A stretch of DNA of 30,018 bases from a virus. The stretch spans positions 1-30,018 of the IMG/VR virus record IMGVR_UViG_3300033233_000133; one strand, written 5' to 3'. The translations under genes were made by a program, and so were the position numbers. The notes under the pieces are model-generated. The model ran no database searches. It was given only the letters and a program-made list of their open reading frames with translations, and was not told where the DNA came from. Shown in pieces: positions 2,930 through 21,621 of this stretch (position 1 is its first letter; every line of letters starts with the position of its first letter).

Positions 2930-5900
2930 CTATAAAATGTTTTTCTCCAATAAATCTATTTTCTGAGCCATTTGTTTAAGTCTCTCTAATAGTTCTGAAG
3001 CGTTCATACCTACGAAAATTGTCTTTTTCCCAGAATCCCAGTCGTAAGAAATTCTGTAAACATAGAGAGTATTTCCGTCGCAATCTACTGCATCACCGAG
3101 TTCGATAGGTGTCTCAATAGATACTTCTTTCCTATAATCATACGCTGGGTCTTTAAAAATATCTAAATATTTTGTAGCAAATAACGTTGCGCTTTCTTTT
3201 GAAGTCCATCCGTCAAGTTTTCTGACATCTAATCTCTCACCATATCTCCTTATGCTTTCATCATCTTTAACAGTTATGTAGTTTGATGTAGGTCGTGAAG
3301 CATAGACATAAAGGTTATCATAGAAATTATCCCCAGTGGCAGTGAGGCTGATTTGCGTAATATTCACAGGCGCTCCAGTCTTTGAGAATTGACTGATGGG
3401 GACATCCACAGAATCCCACATCGGATATGAAGCGCTCCAAACATAATCAATATATTTCCAAACATATTCTGTCGTGACTGTAGTTTTTACTTTTGCAACG
3501 TGAGCGTTGAAATAACATTGACCTTGTGCATAAGTTTCATAATACCTGCTGACTGTATAATAATAATCTGCCCACGCAGTCGCTTGCCCGTTCTGAATCC
3601 GAATTTGAACGGGTACAAAAATATAAGTATCATAATAAGGCAAACCGTAACCATCGGCTGATTTTGTAGGAATTTGGACTTGAGCGAAAGTTTCGTAACT
3701 TTCATTTACATCTAGCGGGGGGACGCTAAACAACCCCAAATTGTTTATTACAAAGTGAATTACTGTGCCTTGTTTCCCGCCTGCGTTATCTCCTATATAA
3801 GGGATATTAAAGTTTGCGATATCATTACTCCAAGTCGTTTGATATGATGTTTGACTCCCCGAAGCCACTTGAGCATATTCTGTAATTTGTAAATTTTGAC
3901 AGTTGACACCATAAGAAGTTCCAACAGGATATAGGTTTTTAAAATGAACCTCCAGAGTATCGGCTTGGATATTGTCAAAGATAAAAATAAACTCATTATT
4001 TAAAGTATTGTTCCAGCCAGTCTCTGAAACAGTGTTCCCGTTTAATTTCAAAACCACTTTTACAGAACAGAAGTTTGAAGTTTTGCCTTGGACATAATGA
4101 ATATATTTAGACGTGAAAGTTATGGTTTTTACGACTTCGTCGCTTGGATTTGCAGAGGTCAAGACAAAGCCTGCACCTTGTGAACCTGCAAAACTTCTTG
4201 TGTAAGAAAGGTAATTAGAAGCGTCAGCCAGTAATTGAATTGTCAAAGTCGTCGAGGTCGTCGGTGGACTCCAATTCAAAGTCAGGTGGTCAAAGTCTGT
4301 AATTTTAAAACTTACACCGCTTCTCGTTATAGTTCCGTTCCCTTTCAGAATGTAAGGCGAACCACTTGGTGCTAAAAGCCCATTTGCTGTTTGTGTTGCG
4401 TTGCTTACAGTCCCAGACCAGTTCGAAGCGTCATAATTAGTCAAAGAGTTCGAAACAACAGGATACTGTTTAATTATGTAGTATTCTTGAATGTAGTTTC
4501 TTATAACTTTTCTATCTTCACTCCAACTCACTGATTTATCTGCTTTCGTAAGTTTATATTTGATATCACTGTCAGTTCTGAAATAAAACTTACCATTTCT
4601 TTCATAGCCTCTTGCACCATTGATAATCAATACTTTTTCTAACAAATCAGAGAGCGTTGCATTGTCATATTGTTGAAGATATAAGTATTCTGTTAAATTC
4701 CCGAATACCTGAGTATTTAAAATAGACTTTAGAAAATCAATAGACTTCATTGCAGTCACAGAAGTCGAAACTGTCTGTTGTAAATCAAAAGAAGATACTG
4801 CACTATAAGAATAACCGCTATTTGTATTTTGAATATTTGTAATTCTGAATTGGTATACTCGTTTTTTATCAGCGTTCATAACGACACTTATAGTTGGACT
4901 CGAGATTAGAGTATCGCTTTCGAAACTAATCTCTGAGACGTTAGGCAAAATATTATCAGTTAAAATAACATTCCACGCATTTATCTTAGTATTATTAGCA
5001 AGAATTGATAAAGACTTATCTGTAGATGCGTAATTCACATTTAAGAAATAATTTGAACTAATTAGCAAAGTCCAGACATTCCCGATTTCGTATCTATAAA
5101 CGTGGTCGCCTTGCTCTAAAGAAATCATTTTTGAAAAAGTATAAGTATAAGGTCCTGAACCTGTTCTTGAAACATAGTCCATCTGATAGGTCTGTCCATC
5201 AATATTGATAACGACATTAGGCATTTTTGTATAAGCATCATTTATGACTAAATTAAAACTTACTTTGTCTTTATCTTGCGAAACTGATTGCGAAATAATT
5301 GAGGGATAACCAATATTCAAAATATTGTCGCCAGGAGGGGTAAATGTAAAAGTCAAATATGTATAATTTACTGTTGCATAGAGTTGCGTTGTGAGTGCCT
5401 GCTGGTCATAATAATTTACTCCTCCATTTGTTATTTTGTGTTGAACGCCTATAAGCAAATCTGTTATTTCTTGCGCAGTCCAAGCCGCACCTGTATAAGG
5501 GTTAGTCGTATAAGTTTTAGTTTTAGTTCCCCAGGCATCTAACGAGGTCTGGTCGTTATCAAGGTACAAGGTATTATGGGTTTTTATAATGCAAGCGACA
5601 TATCCACAAGCGTTTGTCCCGTTGCCCTGATAGTTTTTAGTATATATTCTATATGTTATTACTACAGAAGTAATGGACTGCAAGCCATCGGGTGGGGAAA
5701 ATGAGGTTTTCCCATATAAATCTTGTTGCGTAACAGTAGACGCTCCAGATGTGTATATATAATCGGTTGCATCATTTGCGGTGGGTTCGTCTAATTTATC
5801 ATAGTGTGTAGTTGGAGAAGTAGGATAAACCCCACCGATAGCAATAGAACTATCGCTTGTAGGATATAACTTCTGACTTCCGCTTGATTGCGATACCGTC

Positions 5901-13706: not shown

Positions 13707-15689
13707 TTAATCCCTCCTAAATGCGACTGTGCATCTGCAGTTTATTGTGTTCCCTGGGCTTCCTGCCTTGTCTCCTGGGAACATCAATTCCTCTTTTTCT
13801 CCACCTGCTTCTATTGCAACATTAAAAGGCTCGTCTATATTTCTCACTTGTGCGTTTGCTTCAGCGTGTCCTGAGCGAGTTCTTTCGTCAATGGCGGTAA
13901 CCCAGACTTTTTTTCTCATACCTGCCTGCGAACCTGCCTCTAACTTTGCGTAATTCGTTGCTGATATAGTTTCAGTTCTTGCGATTGTCTGACTTCTATT
14001 CTTATAAGTCTCTTCAAAAAGCGTTTTCATTCTATTTGCCAAGTCTGGAATACCTTCTCCGTTCTGTATACCTTCTAACAACTGGTCATAAATGTCCTTT
14101 CTTGTAGTCTGTATGACTTCTGAAGCGGACTTCTCTAAAGACTTCATAAGATTTTCTTGAATTTTCGGCACTTGCAAATTGAAACTTGCAGAGAAGCCTA
14201 ATGAACTCAAAACCTTATCGCCTGCTTGTTGCATAAACGAAAGAATAAACGGCTTGAGATGTTTAATATAGTAATCCTTCCACTCGTCGGGCAAGGTCAA
14301 ATCTACTATATCCTCAAGTTTAATTTTCGTAATAATGCCGTTTTGAGATTTCTTTTTATTCAATTCATTCAGAATGTATTTCTCTTGCTTAGAGAAGATG
14401 TCCATAATCTCTTTCGCTAATCGTTTCTCCATCGGCTCGGTCATTGCGATATAATCTTTTGAAATCAAATCAAAATCAAATTCCTTGTTTTCTTTCACTT
14501 CAAGCCTCTGCTCTATCTTCTCTAATTTCTCAAGTATTTTTGCGGTCTCAAGATTAGGTTGTGGACTTACACTCCCAAGTGGTGTCATATTTAAATTGCC
14601 CCACCACTGATTGCCCCACGGCACAGGGTCAAGCCCGTCTTGTGTGCGTATCTCGTTTATGTATGTCGTGCCGTTTTTGAGTTGTATGTCTCGTATTTGC
14701 TCTAAAATCTGTTTATCTTCAAGCGAAAGATTTTCTGTAAACTTAAATCGAAATTCTGCTTTGTTGTCTAAAAGTTTCGTTGTGATTTGTTCTGCTAAAT
14801 CGTTTGCAAGCGGTTTAGTCACATACTTCTCAAAAATGTATTCTTGCGTTTGTGCGACTGCTTTATTCACGCCTTGCATATCATTGAAAAACACGCTTGG
14901 TATACCGAAAGCAATCATTATTCTTTGTTTAGTCAGGTCGTCTACTTCTTTCATACCAAACTGAAGCGGTGAGTTTCTAATATCTACAACTTTCCAATCC
15001 GAACCACTTAAAAGCATAACCTTCCCTGCATTTGACGGGGCTGCGTATTTCTCTCGTATCTGCTCTTTAATCGTGTCAATTTGTTGTGGAGTTAAATTAT
15101 CCTGCGTTGTGAAAATCATATTCAAAAATGCGCCGTTGTTAAAGATATTCGATAAGACTTCCATCTGGCGGTATTGAAGTTTTGAGTCTTCGAAAACCGT
15201 CGACAGCGGGCTTATATCCTTTATAATTCTTACAAACGGCGACTGGCCTGTGATAAGTGCAACTTCTGAAATATCATAAGTATCAGTCCAGAAAACTCTC
15301 ATATAAAGAACTTTTATCTCGCTTGGAGTTACAAGAAGTGTTATTCTATCGCCGTCCAGAAGTTCGGGCCGTGGGAAGGATTTTCTAATAAATGCTATGC
15401 CTGTAATGTCCCTCCAATATTGTATCTTCTGAAGGAACTGCCTCGGTGTCAAGTTCACAGGATTAGCAAACCACGACATTAACTTCTGGTTAGGCTTGTC
15501 ATCATTCACAATTTCCCACTCTAAGTCTGAAATCGCCTGTGCTCGCAAAGTCAAGGCTCGGTTCACATACGGATTTTTTATAGCGGCGTCTTCCAGCGAA
15601 CTTATATCAGAACTTACACCGCCTGTCAGAAGTCCCGTCCCTACATACGAAAAATTTTTCTGCCTTTTAAAGAAATCAAAAAGTCCCAT
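13707..15689 (-). CDS. portal protein fused to MuF-like (SPP1 gp7) domain
   Basis: The 660-aa protein is far longer than a normal portal of about 400-500 aa. Residues 1 to about 380 fit an HK97-type portal: an N-terminal AAIKNPYVNRALTLRAQ region, and DDLTKQRIMIAFGIPSVFF with the following helices. After a linker and helical region, residues about 565-660 are a MuF/SPP1 gp7 domain: SQTIARTETISATNYAKLEA, then DERTRSGHAEANAQ, and a C-terminal NTINCRCTVAFRRD. MuF proteins are minor head proteins that sit on the portal. Here both roles are on one chain. The ATG overlaps the terminase stop (TAATG). No sign of a frameshift at the junction. Confidence 0.88.
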   Translation of the reverse strand: MGLFDFFKRQKNFSYVGTGLLTGGVSSDISSLEDAAIKNPYVNRALTLRAQAISDLEWEIVNDDKPNQKLMSWFANPVNLTPRQFLQKIQYWRDITGIAFIRKSFPRPELLDGDRITLLVTPSEIKVLYMRVFWTDTYDISEVALITGQSPFVRIIKDISPLSTVFEDSKLQYRQMEVLSNIFNNGAFLNMIFTTQDNLTPQQIDTIKEQIREKYAAPSNAGKVMLLSGSDWKVVDIRNSPLQFGMKEVDDLTKQRIMIAFGIPSVFFNDMQGVNKAVAQTQEYIFEKYVTKPLANDLAEQITTKLLDNKAEFRFKFTENLSLEDKQILEQIRDIQLKNGTTYINEIRTQDGLDPVPWGNQWWGNLNMTPLGSVSPQPNLETAKILEKLEKIEQRLEVKENKEFDFDLISKDYIAMTEPMEKRLAKEIMDIFSKQEKYILNELNKKKSQNGIITKIKLEDIVDLTLPDEWKDYYIKHLKPFILSFMQQAGDKVLSSLGFSASFNLQVPKIQENLMKSLEKSASEVIQTTRKDIYDQLLEGIQNGEGIPDLANRMKTLFEETYKNRSQTIARTETISATNYAKLEAGSQAGMRKKVWVTAIDERTRSGHAEANAQVRNIDEPFNVAIEAGGEKEELMFPGDKAGSPGNTINCRCTVAFRRD

Positions 15690-16864
15690 TAAAGTATCAC
15701 CACCTCTGGTGTTCCTCGTTTTAAATGCGAATACACTGCATATCTAAATGCGTCCATCAAATGGTCATTAAACTTCACAGGCTCTTCTAAAACGTTCCCG
15801 TCTTTGTCTTTCCTGTATGAATAGCCTTGAATTTCTTTTATAAAGTTTACACAGCGTGGGTGTATGTGAATTTTGAAGTTCTTTACAAAGTTTATACCTT
15901 GTATGACATCTTTATCAGTTTTACCTACTGCAAAACCTGCCTCTTGAAGTTCTTTTATACGGTCAGGCTCTGCAAGGTCTGGATAGTATACATTCGCTTG
16001 CGGTTTGTCTTTCAAGAGTTCAATGAGTTCGGAGTTCTTAAGGTGGCTTTGATAAATCTCATCGAAAATATAGAGTTCGTTATCTTTTATCCCAATGTAA
16101 GCAACCGCACTCGGATTGTTAAAGCCGAAGTCCACGCCTGCAATTACCTCATCAAAGTTGAGTTCAAACTCCTTGACGTCCCAATTGTTATAAATGAGTT
16201 CCGATAGCGTTCCCCACTCACCAAGAGCGTAGACTTTATAAAGATTTTCATTTTGTGTTTTCAAACCTTCAAGGACTTCAACATATGGCTGGTCTATGAA
16301 TTTGTTATCCTGGTAGGTTGTTTTGCGAATTTCGGCTCTATTATCTATCGTATCGAAAAAGCGTTTCTTCAACCAATGCAAAGCACTTACAGGGTTGAAT
16401 GTCAGAATAACTTGGTGATACTCGCTTGGGTCTCGAAGTCGTAAGTCTACCTGCATAAAGTCATCTTCACTTAACTCGGTTGCTTCTTCTATCCAAATTG
16501 AAGTTATACCTGCAATTGATTTTAATTTCTCAACATCGTCAAGCCCAGCAAATAGTATCTGATTGCCGTTTTGACACACGATTTTCATTTCAACATCGTT
16601 GATTTTAAATAAGTTTGTTAAGTTCCATTCCGAAATTAAATCTTTTAGAAGTAAGAAACTTGAATTTCGCAATGTCCTTGCAACCTTCCTGACAACTAAT
16701 ATACGGCTCTTTTTTTCTTGTAAAGTCCTGATTAAGATTTTCTGTGCAGCGAAATATGACTTGCCAGCGCCTGCACCGCCGTATAAAATCAAATAACGAC
16801 TCTTATTTTCTAATAGGTCTATATATTTAGGGTTAAACACTTCCTGCTCGATTTCAATCACCAT
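15689..16864 (-). CDS. terL: terminase large subunit
   Basis: The 391-aa packaging motor has an N-terminal ATPase with Walker A GGAGAGKS (residues 29-36) and Walker B with catalytic carboxylates in ITSIWIEEATEL. The C-terminal RNase H-like nuclease shows metal-binding aspartates in AGVDFGFNNPSAV, YYPDLAEPD and NDHLMDAFRYAVY. The pattern fits the PBSX/Terminase_3 type. It translocates DNA into proheads and cuts genome ends. The gene overlaps the small subunit by 11 bp and the portal by 3 bp, so the packaging module is tightly coupled. Confidence 0.93.
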   Translation of the reverse strand: MVIEIEQEVFNPKYIDLLENKSRYLILYGGAGAGKSYFAAQKILIRTLQEKKSRILVVRKVARTLRNSSFLLLKDLISEWNLTNLFKINDVEMKIVCQNGNQILFAGLDDVEKLKSIAGITSIWIEEATELSEDDFMQVDLRLRDPSEYHQVILTFNPVSALHWLKKRFFDTIDNRAEIRKTTYQDNKFIDQPYVEVLEGLKTQNENLYKVYALGEWGTLSELIYNNWDVKEFELNFDEVIAGVDFGFNNPSAVAYIGIKDNELYIFDEIYQSHLKNSELIELLKDKPQANVYYPDLAEPDRIKELQEAGFAVGKTDKDVIQGINFVKNFKIHIHPRCVNFIKEIQGYSYRKDKDGNVLEEPVKFNDHLMDAFRYAVYSHLKRGTPEVVIL

Positions 16865-17324
16865 TTCGCTTAATCCTCACAACGATATTTGCATCGCTAA
16901 TCTCTTGAAGTTCACCTTTGTATTTTAAGCCCATTTCGATTGCTTTAAGTGCTTCTGCTGCGTTGGTGAAACCGTGAGATTTTAAAAACTCATATGCTAA
17001 TTTTTCAAGGTCAGTCACCATTAGAAAGTCATCATGTTTTGCTTTCGCTATGGCGTCGATGAATTGCTCCTCTTTACTTTTATCACTCTCTTCTTTCGCT
17101 ATTGCTTCAGTGACACCTTGTCTGACGCCTTCTTCCCAAAGTTGTTTCCAACCGTATTTTTCAGCCCAATTCAGAATAGTTTTAGGGTCAATCTTGTTGT
17201 GGAACTTTTGTAGAACCTCTGTAGAAATATCTCGTAGACTATATTTATGATTGCCTTGCTCGTCAGGTGTGAGGAACAACTCTTTTACAAAAGCGATAAT
17301 GTCTTCTTTTAGTCTTTTATCCAA
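16854..17324 (-). CDS. terS: terminase small subunit
   Basis: The 156-aa protein begins at a TTG (17324) with GAGGTG six bases upstream; no usable ATG is present. The N-terminal 60 residues contain a helix-turn-helix-like region (YSLRDISTEVLQKFHNK followed by DPKTILNWAEKYGWK) suited to recognising the packaging site. The middle is charged and helical, as in the oligomerising domain, and the end is short and basic. Its place directly before terL supports the call. It is the first gene after the structured leader and terminator, so it should be the first late gene. Confidence 0.8.
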   Translation of the reverse strand: MDKRLKEDIIAFVKELFLTPDEQGNHKYSLRDISTEVLQKFHNKIDPKTILNWAEKYGWKQLWEEGVRQGVTEAIAKEESDKSKEEQFIDAIAKAKHDDFLMVTDLEKLAYEFLKSHGFTNAAEALKAIEMGLKYKGELQEISDANIVVRIKRNGD

Positions 17325-17338
17325 CCATCACACCTCGC

Positions 17339-17380
17339 AAAAAACAGCGGGAGAGTAAAGGAGGTAGGAAACTCCCCCGC
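17339..17380 (-). terminator. intrinsic terminator before terminase genes
   Basis: On the minus strand, GCGGGGGAGT (17380-17371) pairs with ACTCTCCCGC (17356-17347), ten pairs with one G-U, around a 14-base loop. It is followed by TGTTTTTT. This is a textbook Rho-independent terminator in an otherwise AT-rich genome. It separates the early/CRISPR-like operon from the late genes, whose first start codon is only 15 bases further on. Late expression must therefore need read-through or antitermination, or a promoter I cannot see. Confidence 0.85.
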
Positions 17381-17479
17381 ATCGACGTCGCTACTCCTTT
17401 TCTTGTTAAGAGGACAGCCCACCACCGAAAGTCCTCTTGTCCCGCACCCAAAGAGGGTGCACTCCCCAAAAAATTTCAC
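17341..17479 (-). ncRNA. structured leader or small RNA ending at the intrinsic terminator
   Basis: About 140 nt between a TATAAT element and the terminator contain three strong hairpins. The first is GCACCC/GGGTGC (17460-17444), the second AAGAGGAC/GTCCTCTT (17438-17408), and the third is the terminator. A short palindrome CGACGTCG lies at 17390-17383. AAAGGAG at 17400-17394 is complementary to CTCCTTT in the terminator loop (17363-17357), allowing a pseudoknot or an antiterminator pairing. The stretch is much GC-richer than the flanks, and the frames through it have no ribosome binding site. It may be a late leader (like lambda 6S RNA), a regulatory RNA, or less likely a partner of the neighbouring Csf proteins. 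Confidence 0.65.
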
Positions 17480-17485
17480 AACTAT

Positions 17486-17512
17486 ATTATATCGCAATTT
17501 TCAAATTTTCAA
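17486..17512 (-). promoter_or_regulatory. candidate late or small-RNA promoter
   Basis: A perfect -10 TATAAT lies at 17491-17486. Upstream the best -35 match is TTGAAA at 17512-17507, only 15 bases away, or TTTGAA at 16. The -10 is therefore good but the -35 is weak, as in promoters that need an activator or modified polymerase. Start of transcription would be near 17479. The -35 region lies inside the 3' end of the zinc-finger gene. Confidence 0.5.
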
Positions 17513-18011
17513 AATTCAAAAGTCTGGTCAAGGTATTTTTGTAATTTTCGTCTAACAAATCAGCGTCTAAAAATCTCATTACTCTGTCGATGTCTTGGTC
17601 TTGTGGTGGAACTACGGTTTGCCACGCTTTTATGAGAGATTTCAAAAACATTGCTATACGCAAACCTACGATGCTTATGTGTGTTTCTTCGCCGTTCATA
17701 AATGCAATAGCGTCTCGCAAGTCATTTAAATACCTATCAAGCGTAAGGCTTTTGTTTTTCTCTTCTCGCACAACTGAGAACATACTGCCCTCGTTGTGTT
17801 TTCTTCGAAACTCCTTTGAGTGTTTATACTGCTCAAAATCTTGTCTGTCATATTTGTGTAGTCCTTCCCATTCCTTCTTGCCTTTCGTTCTTTCCAAATA
17901 GTAAAGATGCTGATAATACTGAGATGCCTCACTATGACACTGCTTAGAACAAAACTTACGGAACGTCTTGCTTTCAAATTCTTTACCACACCACTCGCAA
18001 GTAAGTTTCAT
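17487..18011 (-). CDS. zinc-finger protein, candidate late regulator
   Basis: The 174-aa protein opens with MKLTCEWCGKEFESKTFRKF, then CSKQC: a four-cysteine zinc finger (Cys5, Cys8, Cys21, Cys25) of FCS/MYM-like style. A basic, tyrosine-rich helical region follows (QYYQHLYYLERTKGKKEW), then a mostly helical C-terminal half. No family is recognised with confidence. It is the last gene before the structured leader and terminator that precede the late operon, the position held in lambda by the antiterminator Q, also a DNA-binding zinc protein of similar length. A late-gene antiterminator or activator role is an inference from position. It could instead belong with the Csf cassette, 11 bp upstream. 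GGAGGCAAAAT precedes the ATG. Confidence 0.6.
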   Translation of the reverse strand: MKLTCEWCGKEFESKTFRKFCSKQCHSEASQYYQHLYYLERTKGKKEWEGLHKYDRQDFEQYKHSKEFRRKHNEGSMFSVVREEKNKSLTLDRYLNDLRDAIAFMNGEETHISIVGLRIAMFLKSLIKAWQTVVPPQDQDIDRVMRFLDADLLDENYKNTLTRLLNFENLKIAI

Positions 18012-18022
18012 ATTTTGCCTCC

Positions 18023-18685
18023 TCAGATATGATTTTTATAACGCCACATTAAAATACCATCGACATTTAGACTGCCTAATCTCTCAAATTCAGGGTCAAA
18101 GAAACTCACAAACCGTGCCTTGTCCCACCCAATCACGGATGCATATTCGTCATAAACGCTCGGATAAGGCAAGTGATGTTGAATAATATACCCCCACACA
18201 TCTTTCCAAGTCCAGTCCTGAATCGGATAAACTTCTCTAATAGATGTATAGAAACTGTTGTTTTTAATACGCATTTTCCTCCTACAAGATTCTTCTTTCC
18301 GCAACCCTATAAAAGATACATCATATCCCTGTTTGCTGAGTTCACTTATACTGGCAAAAAAACCGCTACCTTGAGTATTTTCTCTCTCGGTTCGATAGAT
18401 AACATTTTTAGTACCAATCTTTCTTAAATTAACCATCACTTCTCGCTCTATAACTTTAGGCATAATATTCTCAGGCCAAATAAAGTGAAAAACCGTAATA
18501 TCTGGGGCCTGCTGCAAAACAAGATGTAATAAAACAGTGGAATCCTTCCCTCCAGAAAAAGCAATATATGGCTTCTTGGATTTCGAAAGTGCCTCTCGTA
18601 TAATCTGCTCCGCCTCAAGCAAATGCTTATGATATTCCTCTAATTGCGTATGTATCATAAACATCTTTTCAGTTTGTTTATCCAA
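18023..18685 (-). CDS. cysH: CysH-like PP-loop ATPase (type IV-B CRISPR accessory)
   Basis: The product is 220 aa from a TTG start (18685) that has AGAGGTGG just upstream; ATG codons at 18664 and 18658 are alternatives. The PP-loop SGGKDS lies at residues 44-49, within YIAFSGGKDSTVLLHLV. Later segments FIGLRKEESCRRK and YPIQDWTWKDVWGYI match the PAPS reductase/CysH family, which activates substrates with ATP. The C-terminal ECGLH reductase motif is absent and the protein ends MWRYKNHI, so sulfonucleotide reduction is unlikely. CysH-like genes of unknown role are a hallmark of type IV-B CRISPR-Cas loci. The gene overlaps csf3 by 8 bp, showing it belongs to the cassette. Confidence 0.85.
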   Translation of the reverse strand: MDKQTEKMFMIHTQLEEYHKHLLEAEQIIREALSKSKKPYIAFSGGKDSTVLLHLVLQQAPDITVFHFIWPENIMPKVIEREVMVNLRKIGTKNVIYRTERENTQGSGFFASISELSKQGYDVSFIGLRKEESCRRKMRIKNNSFYTSIREVYPIQDWTWKDVWGYIIQHHLPYPSVYDEYASVIGWDKARFVSFFDPEFERLGSLNVDGILMWRYKNHI

Positions 18686-19403
18686 GCCCCACCTCTGTAA
18701 ATGGGACAGCACACTCTTCTACGTTTCGAATATCCCAGTATGGCGGTTTGGAAGCAATCATAGCAGAATCTTTGTAAAATGACAACATTCGCACAGGTAA
18801 GGGTCTCATAGCCAGCCCGTCTTTTATCCAAGAAAAATCATTGTCTGTGACATTAATTTCAAACTTTCGAATTGCTCCCCATCCAACACGAGTCTCAGAC
18901 CCCAACCCATCCAGTTCGATAAGCAGTTCGTTTATGAATTCCACATCGCCCTTAGCATAAAATCTTACCTTCTCTACGGGGAAATAGACTATCTTCATAG
19001 CATAACTTTTATAAAAACCGCTCCCAACAGGGACTCTGCTTCTTTTTGTTTGCGGTATATATCTATCCTCAAAACGCTTGTATAGAACCTCAATCTTTTT
19101 CATATCTCCATCCAAAATAGATACAGAGGCGTGAAAAACACCGTTAGACTGTTCCAAAGGCACAATCTTATAATATTCTGGGAATACGGTCTCTAAAGGC
19201 ATCTTTGACGGAAGGTTGTAATAATCATCTCCAAGTGCATTTCTCAAAGCAAGATGCGAAACAATTCCATCGAAAAATAACCACGGGTAAGTCAAACTCA
19301 TTGGCGAGGAGAGATGGAAAACAACCTCAAATGGCTTATACGGGTTATTCCTCTGGAGAATCTTCTCTTGGTAGTCCAGTATTTTTTTCTTTATTATTTC
19401 CAT
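18678..19403 (-). CDS. csf3: type IV CRISPR Cas5-like protein Csf3
   Basis: The product is 241 aa, started at the ATG (19403) with AGGTGGG at proper spacing. It reads as a RAMP protein. The N-terminal half begins a ferredoxin-like fold (YKPFEVVFHLSSPMSLTYPW), the middle has RSRVPVGSGFYKSYAMKIVY, and a glycine-rich turn LGSETRVGWGAIRKFEI lies near residue 180. That G-rich turn and the SGFYKS segment match Csf3, the Cas5 equivalent of type IV, which caps the 5' end of the guide in the complex. It overlaps csf2 by 59 bp. It shows no catalytic residues of a Cas6-like nuclease. Confidence 0.75.
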   Translation of the reverse strand: MEIIKKKILDYQEKILQRNNPYKPFEVVFHLSSPMSLTYPWLFFDGIVSHLALRNALGDDYYNLPSKMPLETVFPEYYKIVPLEQSNGVFHASVSILDGDMKKIEVLYKRFEDRYIPQTKRSRVPVGSGFYKSYAMKIVYFPVEKVRFYAKGDVEFINELLIELDGLGSETRVGWGAIRKFEINVTDNDFSWIKDGLAMRPLPVRMLSFYKDSAMIASKPPYWDIRNVEECAVPFTEVGLG

Positions 19404-20223
19404 TTGTCCCACCTATGAAATCCAATACTGCTATAATCTCTTTTTTCTTCTCCTCAATAAAAGACAAATATAAATCTGGACTCATAAACTCAGGCTCGTA
19501 TGAAAAACGAATTTCCCCGTCCCCCTGTGAAGAACGCCCTCCTAAAAATGGAGTCTGTCGGAAAAGATTCATAATGTGACCAAAGCAAGAAAGTTCAACA
19601 TCATTGGGATAATCTAATGCAAAGAAATGGTAAAATAGCGTCCCAGGGATAAAACATTCGTAATCAACCTTCATCTGCACTGCATCTTCGTCCTTGTCCT
19701 GTCTTGGAATCTCCGCCCTACGAGTGATAAATGTATCTCCAGTAAAAAGTCTAACTGACTCCTTCGACTGCTCTACAAATTGTAGTTTTTCTGGTAAAAA
19801 ACTTGCATACTCTTTGCAAATAGGAAAGGCATGTCCAACTTGAAGTTTGCCAGACAAAACTTGATTCCCGATAGACGAACCGAAAATAGCAAGAAGTGGA
19901 AGTGTCTCCCGTATAGTCTTCCTGAGACCCAAATCTATGACACCATAATCTTCCTCGACGCTCTCTAAAACTCCACCAGAATACAAAATATGATGCAGTT
20001 TCAAATTCGGTTCATAGCCCAATCTCGTAAATAAATCCAGAAATGCCAGCCTCCTGAGTTTGCCTCTTATAGAATTGCCAGAAATGTAGGGAACAACCTC
20101 AAATCTCCCCCCGTGGAAAATTGTAATAGTCCTCAAAACAGGAGTAGAACCTGTTTTTTCGTCTCCCCCGTGGAAAATAGGAGTCTTTGCTTCTAAAATT
20201 CCTTCATACTTAACTTTCATCAT
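19345..20223 (-). CDS. csf2: type IV CRISPR Cas7-like backbone protein Csf2
   Basis: The product is 292 aa from ATG 20223 (AAAGGAG upstream; a second ATG follows at once). The start KVKYEGILEAKTPIFHGGDE is the first strand of a RAMP fold. GSTPVLRTITIFHG and VPYISGNSIRGKLRRLAF are the typical Csf2 and Cas7 signatures, the latter a conserved glycine/arginine RNA-binding loop. A second glycine-rich loop, FLGGRSSQGDGEIRF, lies near residue 240. In type IV complexes Csf2 polymerises along RNA. The gene overlaps the Cas11-like gene by 14 bp. Similarity to other RAMPs such as Csm3 or Cmr is possible, but the neighbours argue for type IV. Confidence 0.82.
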   Translation of the reverse strand: MMKVKYEGILEAKTPIFHGGDEKTGSTPVLRTITIFHGGRFEVVPYISGNSIRGKLRRLAFLDLFTRLGYEPNLKLHHILYSGGVLESVEEDYGVIDLGLRKTIRETLPLLAIFGSSIGNQVLSGKLQVGHAFPICKEYASFLPEKLQFVEQSKESVRLFTGDTFITRRAEIPRQDKDEDAVQMKVDYECFIPGTLFYHFFALDYPNDVELSCFGHIMNLFRQTPFLGGRSSQGDGEIRFSYEPEFMSPDLYLSFIEEKKKEIIAVLDFIGGTNGNNKEKNTGLPREDSPEE

Positions 20224-20608
20224 TTCCGTCACTCTCCTTTCTAAAAATATTTTTTGTTTTTCTTGCTTCTCTATACTTCTCAACTCTTAAATATGCAAGT
20301 GCACAAATATAAATATGCTCTTTATAAATCATATCCATCACTTGCTGTTCTTTGGGCTTAAGTTCCTGAATAATCCATACAGCATCCTCTGGCACGGATT
20401 GTATACCAAAATAATTGCATAGTTTAGAGGTAAATTCCTCAAGTGTAGGCTTCCGACTCGCAGCCCTCACGCGATGATTAAAGACATCGTGAATATTCCG
20501 AATTGACTTGAATTTTTTAAAAGGAATAGAAAGATACACTGTCGCGAGTAAATCTGCAATTCTATACTGCAACTCCTCATTTGTAAATAATTTTTGTTCA
20601 CCCGACAT
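20210..20608 (-). CDS. Cas11-like small subunit of type IV complex
   Basis: The 132-aa product is predicted to be almost wholly helical and basic (ELQYRIADLLATVYLSIPFK, HIYICALAYLRVEKYREA). It lies between csf1 and csf2, overlapping both, which is where type IV-B loci carry the small helical subunit Cas11. The sequence of these subunits is poorly conserved, so the call rests on size, helix content and position. GGAGGTGATAG lies nine bases before the ATG. Confidence 0.6.
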   Translation of the reverse strand: MSGEQKLFTNEELQYRIADLLATVYLSIPFKKFKSIRNIHDVFNHRVRAASRKPTLEEFTSKLCNYFGIQSVPEDAVWIIQELKPKEQQVMDMIYKEHIYICALAYLRVEKYREARKTKNIFRKESDGNDES

Positions 20609-21203
20609 AGACTATCACCTCCCATATCGGCATATGTGCTTTTTCTTGCACTCTATTCAAGAGTTCCATCTTGCCTTGTTTCTCTGCCTTTTGGTAAGAC
20701 GTAATCTTGAAAACACCCGTAGACATCTCTGTCTTGCTTAAACCAAGTTCTAATGCCTCGTCATAGAGTTTAAATAAAGTATCTACCTCAGCCTTACTTG
20801 TGAATATCGCACTCTCTGTGAAATCTGTAGAAATATAGAAATGCTCTCTTGACATAGAAACTTTGTTCAAATCTCCTATCCATCCCTGTTTCTGATGCGA
20901 TTGAGTAATATAGAGAAAAAACGGAGGTTCTGGCAAATCATTTAAAACCTGTCTGATTCCCTCTTTTTTCAGAAATTGTATCCCATTAGTTGTAGCGAGA
21001 AAATGTTTCTTCCTGATGTCCTGATTCTTAAAAAACTGATAACAAGAAGGACATAACCCATTACCTGCCTTCATAAAACCCCATCCCACAAAGTTGTCCG
21101 AGAAGGAAAAATCAAAACCCTTCCCTTTCCATCCACACACCACGCAGGTAATTTCCTTGCTTCCCCCTTCTTTAGAAGGATAAATCAATTCTGGTAAATA
21201 CAT
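20598..21203 (-). CDS. csf1: type IV CRISPR large-subunit-like protein Csf1
   Basis: The product is 201 aa, started at the ATG (21203) with GAGGTGGATT before it; a GTG four codons earlier would lie inside that binding site. Cys20 and Cys23 (ITCVVCGWKG) with Cys51 and Cys54 (GNGLCPSCYQFF) form a four-cysteine zinc site, with a glycine/aromatic-rich insert between. This N-terminal finger and the overall length match Csf1, the Cas8-like subunit of type IV. The remainder is mixed helix and strand, with YITQSHQKQGWIGDLNKVS. It is the first csf gene of the cassette. The zinc finger could also occur in unrelated proteins, but the three downstream partners make Csf1 the best reading. Confidence 0.77.
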   Translation of the reverse strand: MYLPELIYPSKEGGSKEITCVVCGWKGKGFDFSFSDNFVGWGFMKAGNGLCPSCYQFFKNQDIRKKHFLATTNGIQFLKKEGIRQVLNDLPEPPFFLYITQSHQKQGWIGDLNKVSMSREHFYISTDFTESAIFTSKAEVDTLFKLYDEALELGLSKTEMSTGVFKITSYQKAEKQGKMELLNRVQEKAHMPIWEVIVYVG

Positions 21204-21211
21204 AATCCACC

Positions 21212-21364
21212 TCACAGGTAGCCACGAAACTTTTTCTTTAAACTCTCAAACTTGAAATGAAGTCCGCTGTCTGTTGATTCCCAAAAAGCATCGATTATCC
21301 ACGAAGCGATAATGATAAAAAGATAAACGATAAGCCAAAAAAGAAGTTGGGTTAAGATCTCCAT
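21212..21364 (-). CDS. small membrane protein (50 aa) before csf1
   Basis: The frame runs from ATG 21364, with GGGAGGAGACG upstream, to TGA 21212. Residues about 5-27 are strongly hydrophobic (TQLLFWLIVYLFIIIASWII), followed by a basic tail ending KKKFRGYL. One membrane span with a cytoplasmic basic tail is expected. Its stop codon lies inside the ribosome binding region of csf1, so the two are probably translationally coupled. Function unknown. Confidence 0.7.
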   Translation of the reverse strand: MEILTQLLFWLIVYLFIIIASWIIDAFWESTDSGLHFKFESLKKKFRGYL

Positions 21365-21382
21365 CGTCTCCTCCCTTTTTGT

Positions 21383-21580
21383 CTACTTTTGATTAGTATA
21401 CTCTAAAGTATACTCTTCAACTCGAAACTCCTTACGCTCTTCAAACTCCTGTTTTTTCCCATTGTTCCAATGCTGGACTGGTCTGAGATACCCCACAGGC
21501 CTGCTCCATACCTCGCACTTTGTCCTTAATTTCTCAGGGATTACAACTCCGTCTTCAATCAAGTCTTTACTCTCTTCCAT
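21383..21580 (-). CDS. stand-alone NrdD-like glycyl-radical-region protein (65 aa)
   Basis: ATG 21580 is preferred because AAAGGAG precedes it; an in-frame TTG ten codons earlier lacks a binding site. The core KCEVWSRPVGYLRPVQHWNN plus GKKQEFEERKEF matches the C-terminal glycyl-radical region of anaerobic ribonucleoside-triphosphate reductase (RxxGYL ... FNxGKxxE). Gly30 is at the radical position. Only one cysteine (Cys22) is present, so the NrdD zinc site is absent. No catalytic NrdD domain is in the genome. Short proteins of this kind are found in anaerobic Firmicutes and often annotated as NrdD; whether they carry a radical is not known to me. The C-terminus repeats EYT LEYT. Confidence 0.65.
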   Translation of the reverse strand: MEESKDLIEDGVVIPEKLRTKCEVWSRPVGYLRPVQHWNNGKKQEFEERKEFRVEEYTLEYTNQK

Positions 21581-21600
21581 TTCGCCATCTCCTTTCTTTT

Positions 21601-21621
21601 TAATTGCCAACTAATTGCCAA
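21601..21621. repeat. tandem 10-bp repeat TAATTGCCAA
   Basis: TAATTGCCAA occurs at 21601-21610 and again at 21612-21621, one base apart, in the gap between two genes. The 11-bp period places both copies on the same helix face. It may be a protein-binding site or the by-product of slippage. Confidence 0.5.

Follow-up and report, generated by a model that had tools for sequence, protein, structure and literature searches.

A conserved two-hairpin leader RNA and terminator between a putative late promoter and the terminase genes of a small tailed phage: a candidate read-through gate

The window analysed here is a stretch of 30,018 nucleotides of viral DNA (positions 1 to 30,018 of IMG/VR record IMGVR_UViG_3300033233_000133). 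Early and late genes run in the same direction, the early ones starting at a consensus promoter located at around 28.9 kb, and a zinc-ribbon gene is the final gene ahead of a putative late promoter. Behind this promoter lies a leader RNA of about 128–140 nt, running from approximately 17478 to 17339 on the minus strand and ending in an intrinsic terminator. The first late gene, terS, starts with a TTG codon at 17324. The features are listed in Table 1.

Table 1. Features at the boundary between the early and late genes of the window
Feature	Position	Strand	Remarks
Type IV-B-like CRISPR-Cas cassette	18023-21215	-	csf1, cas11, csf2, csf3, cysH (CysH/PAPS reductase); no array in view
Zinc-ribbon gene, late-regulator candidate	17487..18011	-	174 aa; ORF and translation
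Direct repeat TGAAAA-N2-TGAAAA, 8-bp period, possible regulator site	17498..17511	-	Upstream of the -10, within coding sequence
TATAAT, -10 of putative late promoter, no good -35	17486..17491	-	Invariant in both promoter variants
Leader hairpin 1, 7-bp stem, 5-nt loop	17443..17461	-	Stem invariant, loop variable in 9 sequences
Leader hairpin 2, 8-bp stem, 15-nt loop	17408..17438	-	Stem invariant, loop variable in 9 sequences
Linker AAAAGGAGTAG, complementary to terminator loop	17391..17401	-	GAAAAGGAGTA invariant in 9/9
Intrinsic terminator, 10-bp stem, 14-nt loop CCUACCUCCUUU, U-tract	17339..17380	-	Kept in 9/9 sequences
terS, first late gene in this phage	16854..17324	-	Weak Terminase_5 and PHROG terminase-small-subunit matches; adjoins clear terL
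terL, large terminase	15689..16864	-	PF04466, E 1e-57

Searches with the zinc-ribbon protein, terS and the RNA itself brought up eight further IMG/VR contigs that carry this leader (L002, L003, L004, L016, L017, L018, L019 and L021). All nine phage contigs share the order zinc gene, promoter, leader, terminator. The succession of zinc-finger gene, weak promoter, leader, terminator and terminase genes from which a Q-like late switch was originally predicted is thus present in the window and kept in its relatives.

The 174-aa protein consists of a CxxC...CxxxC ribbon followed by a helical C-terminal part. A homologue occupies the same position in all eight related contigs, and across the window and these relatives the protein comes in two variants that are 34% identical. 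Pfam, PHROGs and NCBIfam contain no family matching it past the zinc ribbon, which is common with HNH nucleases; neither a Q-family match nor a RinA/ArpU/Ltr match was obtained from these databases. Relatives in cultured genomes were not found either, in a search run without a positive control. Structure models of the protein reach pLDDT values of 54 and 67, a low to medium confidence, and fold searches gave no significant match. In the second-look rows of these searches the C-terminal half aligns best with bL17 ribosomal chains, with Z values up to 6.5 that are too weak to use, and a sequence search of solved structures returned weak eL24 matches only, to the ribbon.

The stop codon of the zinc-ribbon ORF falls inside the TATAAT. 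As had been predicted, this -10 is combined with a poor -35: read by eye, the hexamer at 17-bp spacing in the window is TTTTGA, and both promoter variants carry the TATAAT while having no -35 at 17 bp, as would be expected if initiation requires a regulator. Upstream of the -10, each zinc-protein variant has its own sequence; from the TATAAT onward the two groups come to resemble each other. In the initially transcribed region, both variants further share a TTGTGAA with A/T-rich sequence after it, a poor match to a -10. An exact 9-nt repeat upstream of the -10 is found in the window and L004, and the TGAAAA pair can also be read in L002 and L003. The pair is absent from variant-2 promoters, and the short promoter repeats, which are confined to variant 1, are not clearly above coding bias. 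The promoter is presumably active and dependent on the zinc protein. The protein is probably a late regulator acting at the promoter that overlaps its own gene, either in a RinA/Ltr-like or in a Q/AlpA-like manner.

The stem of the terminator spans 17380-17347 and is followed by TGTTTTTT up to 17339. The predicted strong intrinsic terminator 15 bp before terS is indeed found, with a dG of -16.7 kcal/mol and a z-score of -4.2 against shuffles for the 46-nt fragment. A simple terminator scan had missed it on account of its 14-nt loop. When the whole window is shuffled by dinucleotides, a hairpin of this class ahead of a T-run turns up about 0.1 times per 30 kb. The pyrimidine-rich loop is kept in 9/9 sequences, and in L003 the stem has changed from GGGGGAG/CUCUCCC to GGGAAAG/CUUUCCC, so that pairing survives. 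Within three phages of approximately 30 kb (the window and the relatives behind L002 and L018), it is the sole strong canonical terminator on the coding strand, the others being weaker or irregular. As the only strong co-directional terminator, with early genes reading towards it from about 28.9 kb, it marks the boundary between early and late genes. The late promoter would then lie on its upstream side, and late polymerases would have to pass it. Beyond it, the late operon contains no strong terminator, so there is no need for antitermination that acts processively over a long range.

The same position would suit an insulator that merely blocks early transcription from entering the late genes, with late transcription starting elsewhere, as no other strong terminator separates the early promoter from the late operon. 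An insulator would have no need for two invariant hairpins, however, and the conserved promoter sits upstream of the leader, with just 15 bp separating the terminator from terS, which makes this reading very improbable in our view. Promoter consensus matches in the late operon (71 sites in 18 kb, against 42 expected) cannot settle whether other promoters are absent from it.

In other phages, terminators directly before terS are weakly enriched, with 9/47 compared to 13/172 for downstream late genes (p = 0.03); some terS starts were misplaced by the gene caller in these phages, making the per-phage distances rough. Three contigs with a related TerL (L098, L091 and L109) have a similar layout upstream of terS in a different sequence, with a TATAAT-like or TAAAAT -10 located approximately 90–170 nt before one or two terminators that directly precede terS.

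The leader was originally described as structured. This holds for its parts: in hairpins 1 and 2, none of the 30 stem positions varies among the nine sequences, compared to 12 of the 20 loop positions (Fisher p = 1e-6). Taken over its full length, the leader is no more stable than its shuffled versions (z -0.96), so that evidence for structure must be comparative. The proposed comparison of related phages for conserved pairing thus yields invariant stems in all nine sequences, but formal stem covariation is not above shuffles, the nine-sequence alignment being too shallow. We infer that the terminator functions in vivo and that the hairpins contribute to its control. The linker GAAAAGGAGUA does not vary, and in each of the nine sequences it is complementary to the loop of the terminator. 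As an antiterminator pairing this was rejected, since composition accounts for it: although the pairing is kept in all nine, shuffles reach it at 0.20, which is not significant. The 5' GGGGAG can pair with the 3' arm of the terminator (shuffles 0.03), which is to be taken as a lead only. Together, the two pairings could form an antiterminator, which in these sequences does not clearly exceed chance.

Several other elements were considered and dismissed. A helix between the 5' end of the leader and the segment after hairpin 2 is, on inspection, broken in about half of the sequences. The boxA-like CUCUUAACA belongs to a motif class that is not enriched (7 sites against 4.8 expected). A leader peptide after AAAAGGAG has no start codon in L003 and its frame, by reading, is not conserved.

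No Rfam 15 family matched at the gathering threshold, the best sub-threshold hit having an E of 2.6. With a covariance model, the RNA was recovered in overlapping stretches of these contigs, and no convincing hit was obtained elsewhere. Searches run without a positive control gave no leader RNA in phage or plasmid records, nor in 299 genomes (the genome searches covered several hundred of one phylum), and no relatives of the RNA were found outside this phage group. Judged by sequence comparison, the leader with its terminator is a real, conserved and unclassified RNA element, belonging to none of the known families tested. With about 150 bp, it is small and testable, and a candidate for a new RNA family.

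The strong terminator would yield a discrete RNA of about 140 nt. The leader might therefore act mainly as a separate small RNA, of which the C-rich terminator loop (CCUCCUU), kept in 9/9, pairs with ribosome-binding sites of other mRNAs while the late genes are expressed by leakage. Yet the invariant AAAAGGAG linker would hide that loop, and in every case the RNA adjoins the start of the late operon, immediately followed by the first gene's ribosome-binding site. We therefore regard such a role as quite unlikely.

The leaders of seven relatives are 81–94% identical to that of the window (blastn), and the leader of L021 reaches 95–96% over hairpins and terminator. Between the window and L021, identity is 45% for the zinc gene, 96% for the hairpins, 95% for linker plus terminator, and 38% for the next gene. 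More generally, the half containing regulator and promoter has 43–46% nucleotide identity between variants, and the downstream gene 32–38% where it differs. Because the RNA is kept while both flanks are exchanged, it belongs to neither flanking gene. All relatives except L003 (7/8) come from one metagenome, and recent recombination could therefore explain part of the conservation. Among the relatives, the first gene after the leader is one of several terS alleles or an unrelated gene. L004 has a queuosine-precursor transporter gene (3662-4378) in place of the first late gene, and L021 a ParB-like/methyltransferase gene (3177-4505). These replacements suggest that the slot behind the leader takes accessory genes.

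Late-gene control in Gram-positive phages is usually attributed to promoter activators. The best reading of the present locus is read-through control of the late genes, which the original prediction had considered likely and which holds as probable, given the sole strong coding-strand terminator and an arrangement kept in relatives. More specifically, we propose, with a probability of about 0.5, that the locus is the gate between early and late expression of a small tailed phage, made up of a regulator-dependent promoter, a conserved leader and terminator read-through. The proposal is built on the anatomy of the locus, the conservation of the RNA independently of its flanks, the invariance of the stems and the uniqueness of the terminator. 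Transcription of the late operon would start at the perfect -10 without a -35, overlapping the end of the early regulator gene. The polymerase would then make the conserved two-hairpin leader of about 130 nt and meet the strong terminator ahead of the first late gene, and the late genes would be on only once it passes. The zinc protein would most likely act at the promoter, either activating it or loading onto the polymerase like Q and AlpA, while the leader RNA would be the cis-acting element that sets read-through.

Read-through of this kind might be regulated on the Q/AlpA plan, a Q-like mechanism being possible, or by an attenuator that follows a promoter in need of an activator. Both Q and AlpA engage at a promoter and take the polymerase through a single terminator further downstream (PMC6606751, PMC9371919). 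AlpA and the Q systems of lambda, 21 and 82 share with the window a regulator gene just upstream, a late promoter, a short leader, one intrinsic terminator and a target operon (PMC9371919, PMC6606751). As in Q systems, the intrinsic terminator lies between the late promoter and the late genes. In contrast, the zinc protein does not match Q in sequence, and Q promoters have a -35 which is missing here; compared to both AlpA and Q, the conserved structured leader RNA and the lack of later strong terminators set the locus apart. For an activator, Ltr provides a documented precedent, the regulator gene standing immediately ahead of its own late promoter (PMC13123087). The zinc gene, immediately followed by the TATA-only promoter that heads the late operon, is placed like the genes of RinA and Ltr. 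Here, the zinc protein differs from RinA, ArpU and Ltr in lacking a sequence match and in having a zinc ribbon, and the structured leader and terminator after the promoter are not described for Ltr in PMC13123087. The closest named relative by TerL (58%), phage THSA-485A, has a RinA-family gene two genes ahead of terS-terL.

It had been proposed that the zinc protein itself is the antiterminator. It would then be a novel factor, Q-like or binding RNA, that alters the polymerase at the promoter or on the leader so that the terminator is passed. In its favour, the locus follows the Q and AlpA systems in the order of promoter, leader and terminator (PMC6606751, PMC9371919), variant-1 promoters have the 8-bp-period repeat upstream of the -10, and the TTGTGAA lies where Q systems have a -10-like pause element. 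The binding element of lambdoid Q proteins is likewise a repeat, located between the -35 and the -10. The weak resemblances to eL24 (ribbon) and bL17 (C-terminal half) would fit RNA binding as well, but neither likeness can be relied on. Against it, the protein matches no Q family, the TGAAAA repeat is coding and absent from variant 2, and there are no later strong terminators to bypass. The leader is common to both protein variants, and the hairpin-1 loop types UCUUU and UGCGU are each found with both of them, giving no sign of co-adaptation between protein and RNA. A RinA/Ltr-type promoter activator would account no less well for the position of the gene and the lack of a -35. We consider the proposal doubtful.

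Purely RNA-based antitermination as by the put RNAs of HK022 is possible. These are likewise promoter-proximal RNAs with two adjacent stem-loops (PMC9378689), but they differ in sequence and size, need no phage protein and act over at least 10 kb, whereas here the terminator directly follows the hairpins. Because early transcripts would contain the same leader, a bypass driven solely by the RNA would affect them too and could not provide timing, for which a factor tied to the late promoter or the regulator would be needed. It is conceivable, though on balance unlikely, that protein and RNA form a two-part antitermination module, in which the zinc-ribbon protein and the two-hairpin leader jointly pass one gate terminator and the regulator-promoter and RNA halves are exchanged separately between phages. 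If the two cooperate, the arrangement would resemble conAn of pLS20, where a protein (ConAn1) and a cis RNA (conAn2) head a long operon (PMC8955417). Unlike in conAn, the zinc gene lies upstream of the promoter instead of in the operon, and the several internal terminators that conAn bypasses have no counterpart in the late operon, which has no other strong terminator. Returning to the gate with a regulator-dependent promoter, a conserved RNA and terminator after a late promoter would show read-through control on the lambda plan, with different parts, outside the lambdoid phages.

The CRISPR cassette is located between a small ORF (~21375-21215) and the zinc gene. It is common to L003 (Csf2 96% identical) and absent from L002, which has an uninterrupted junction. 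A function of the leader RNA as guide for the type IV-B-like complex was rejected on these grounds, the RNA and zinc gene occurring without the cassette; since the leader RNA exists without it, the cassette is a separate insertion and does not belong to the switch. Only one of 50,697 phage records, Skermania phage SPI1, has a detectable Csf2 relative. The small ORF (21215-21375, minus strand) encodes a membrane-like protein of about 50 aa just before the cassette and in L002 stands directly before the zinc gene. A 75-aa protein (21383-21610, minus strand; L016 5032-5262) resembles the C-terminal end alone of the anaerobic ribonucleotide reductase NrdD (NCBIfam TIGR02487, E 8e-9), as if it were a stand-alone glycyl-radical segment, and is kept in relatives.
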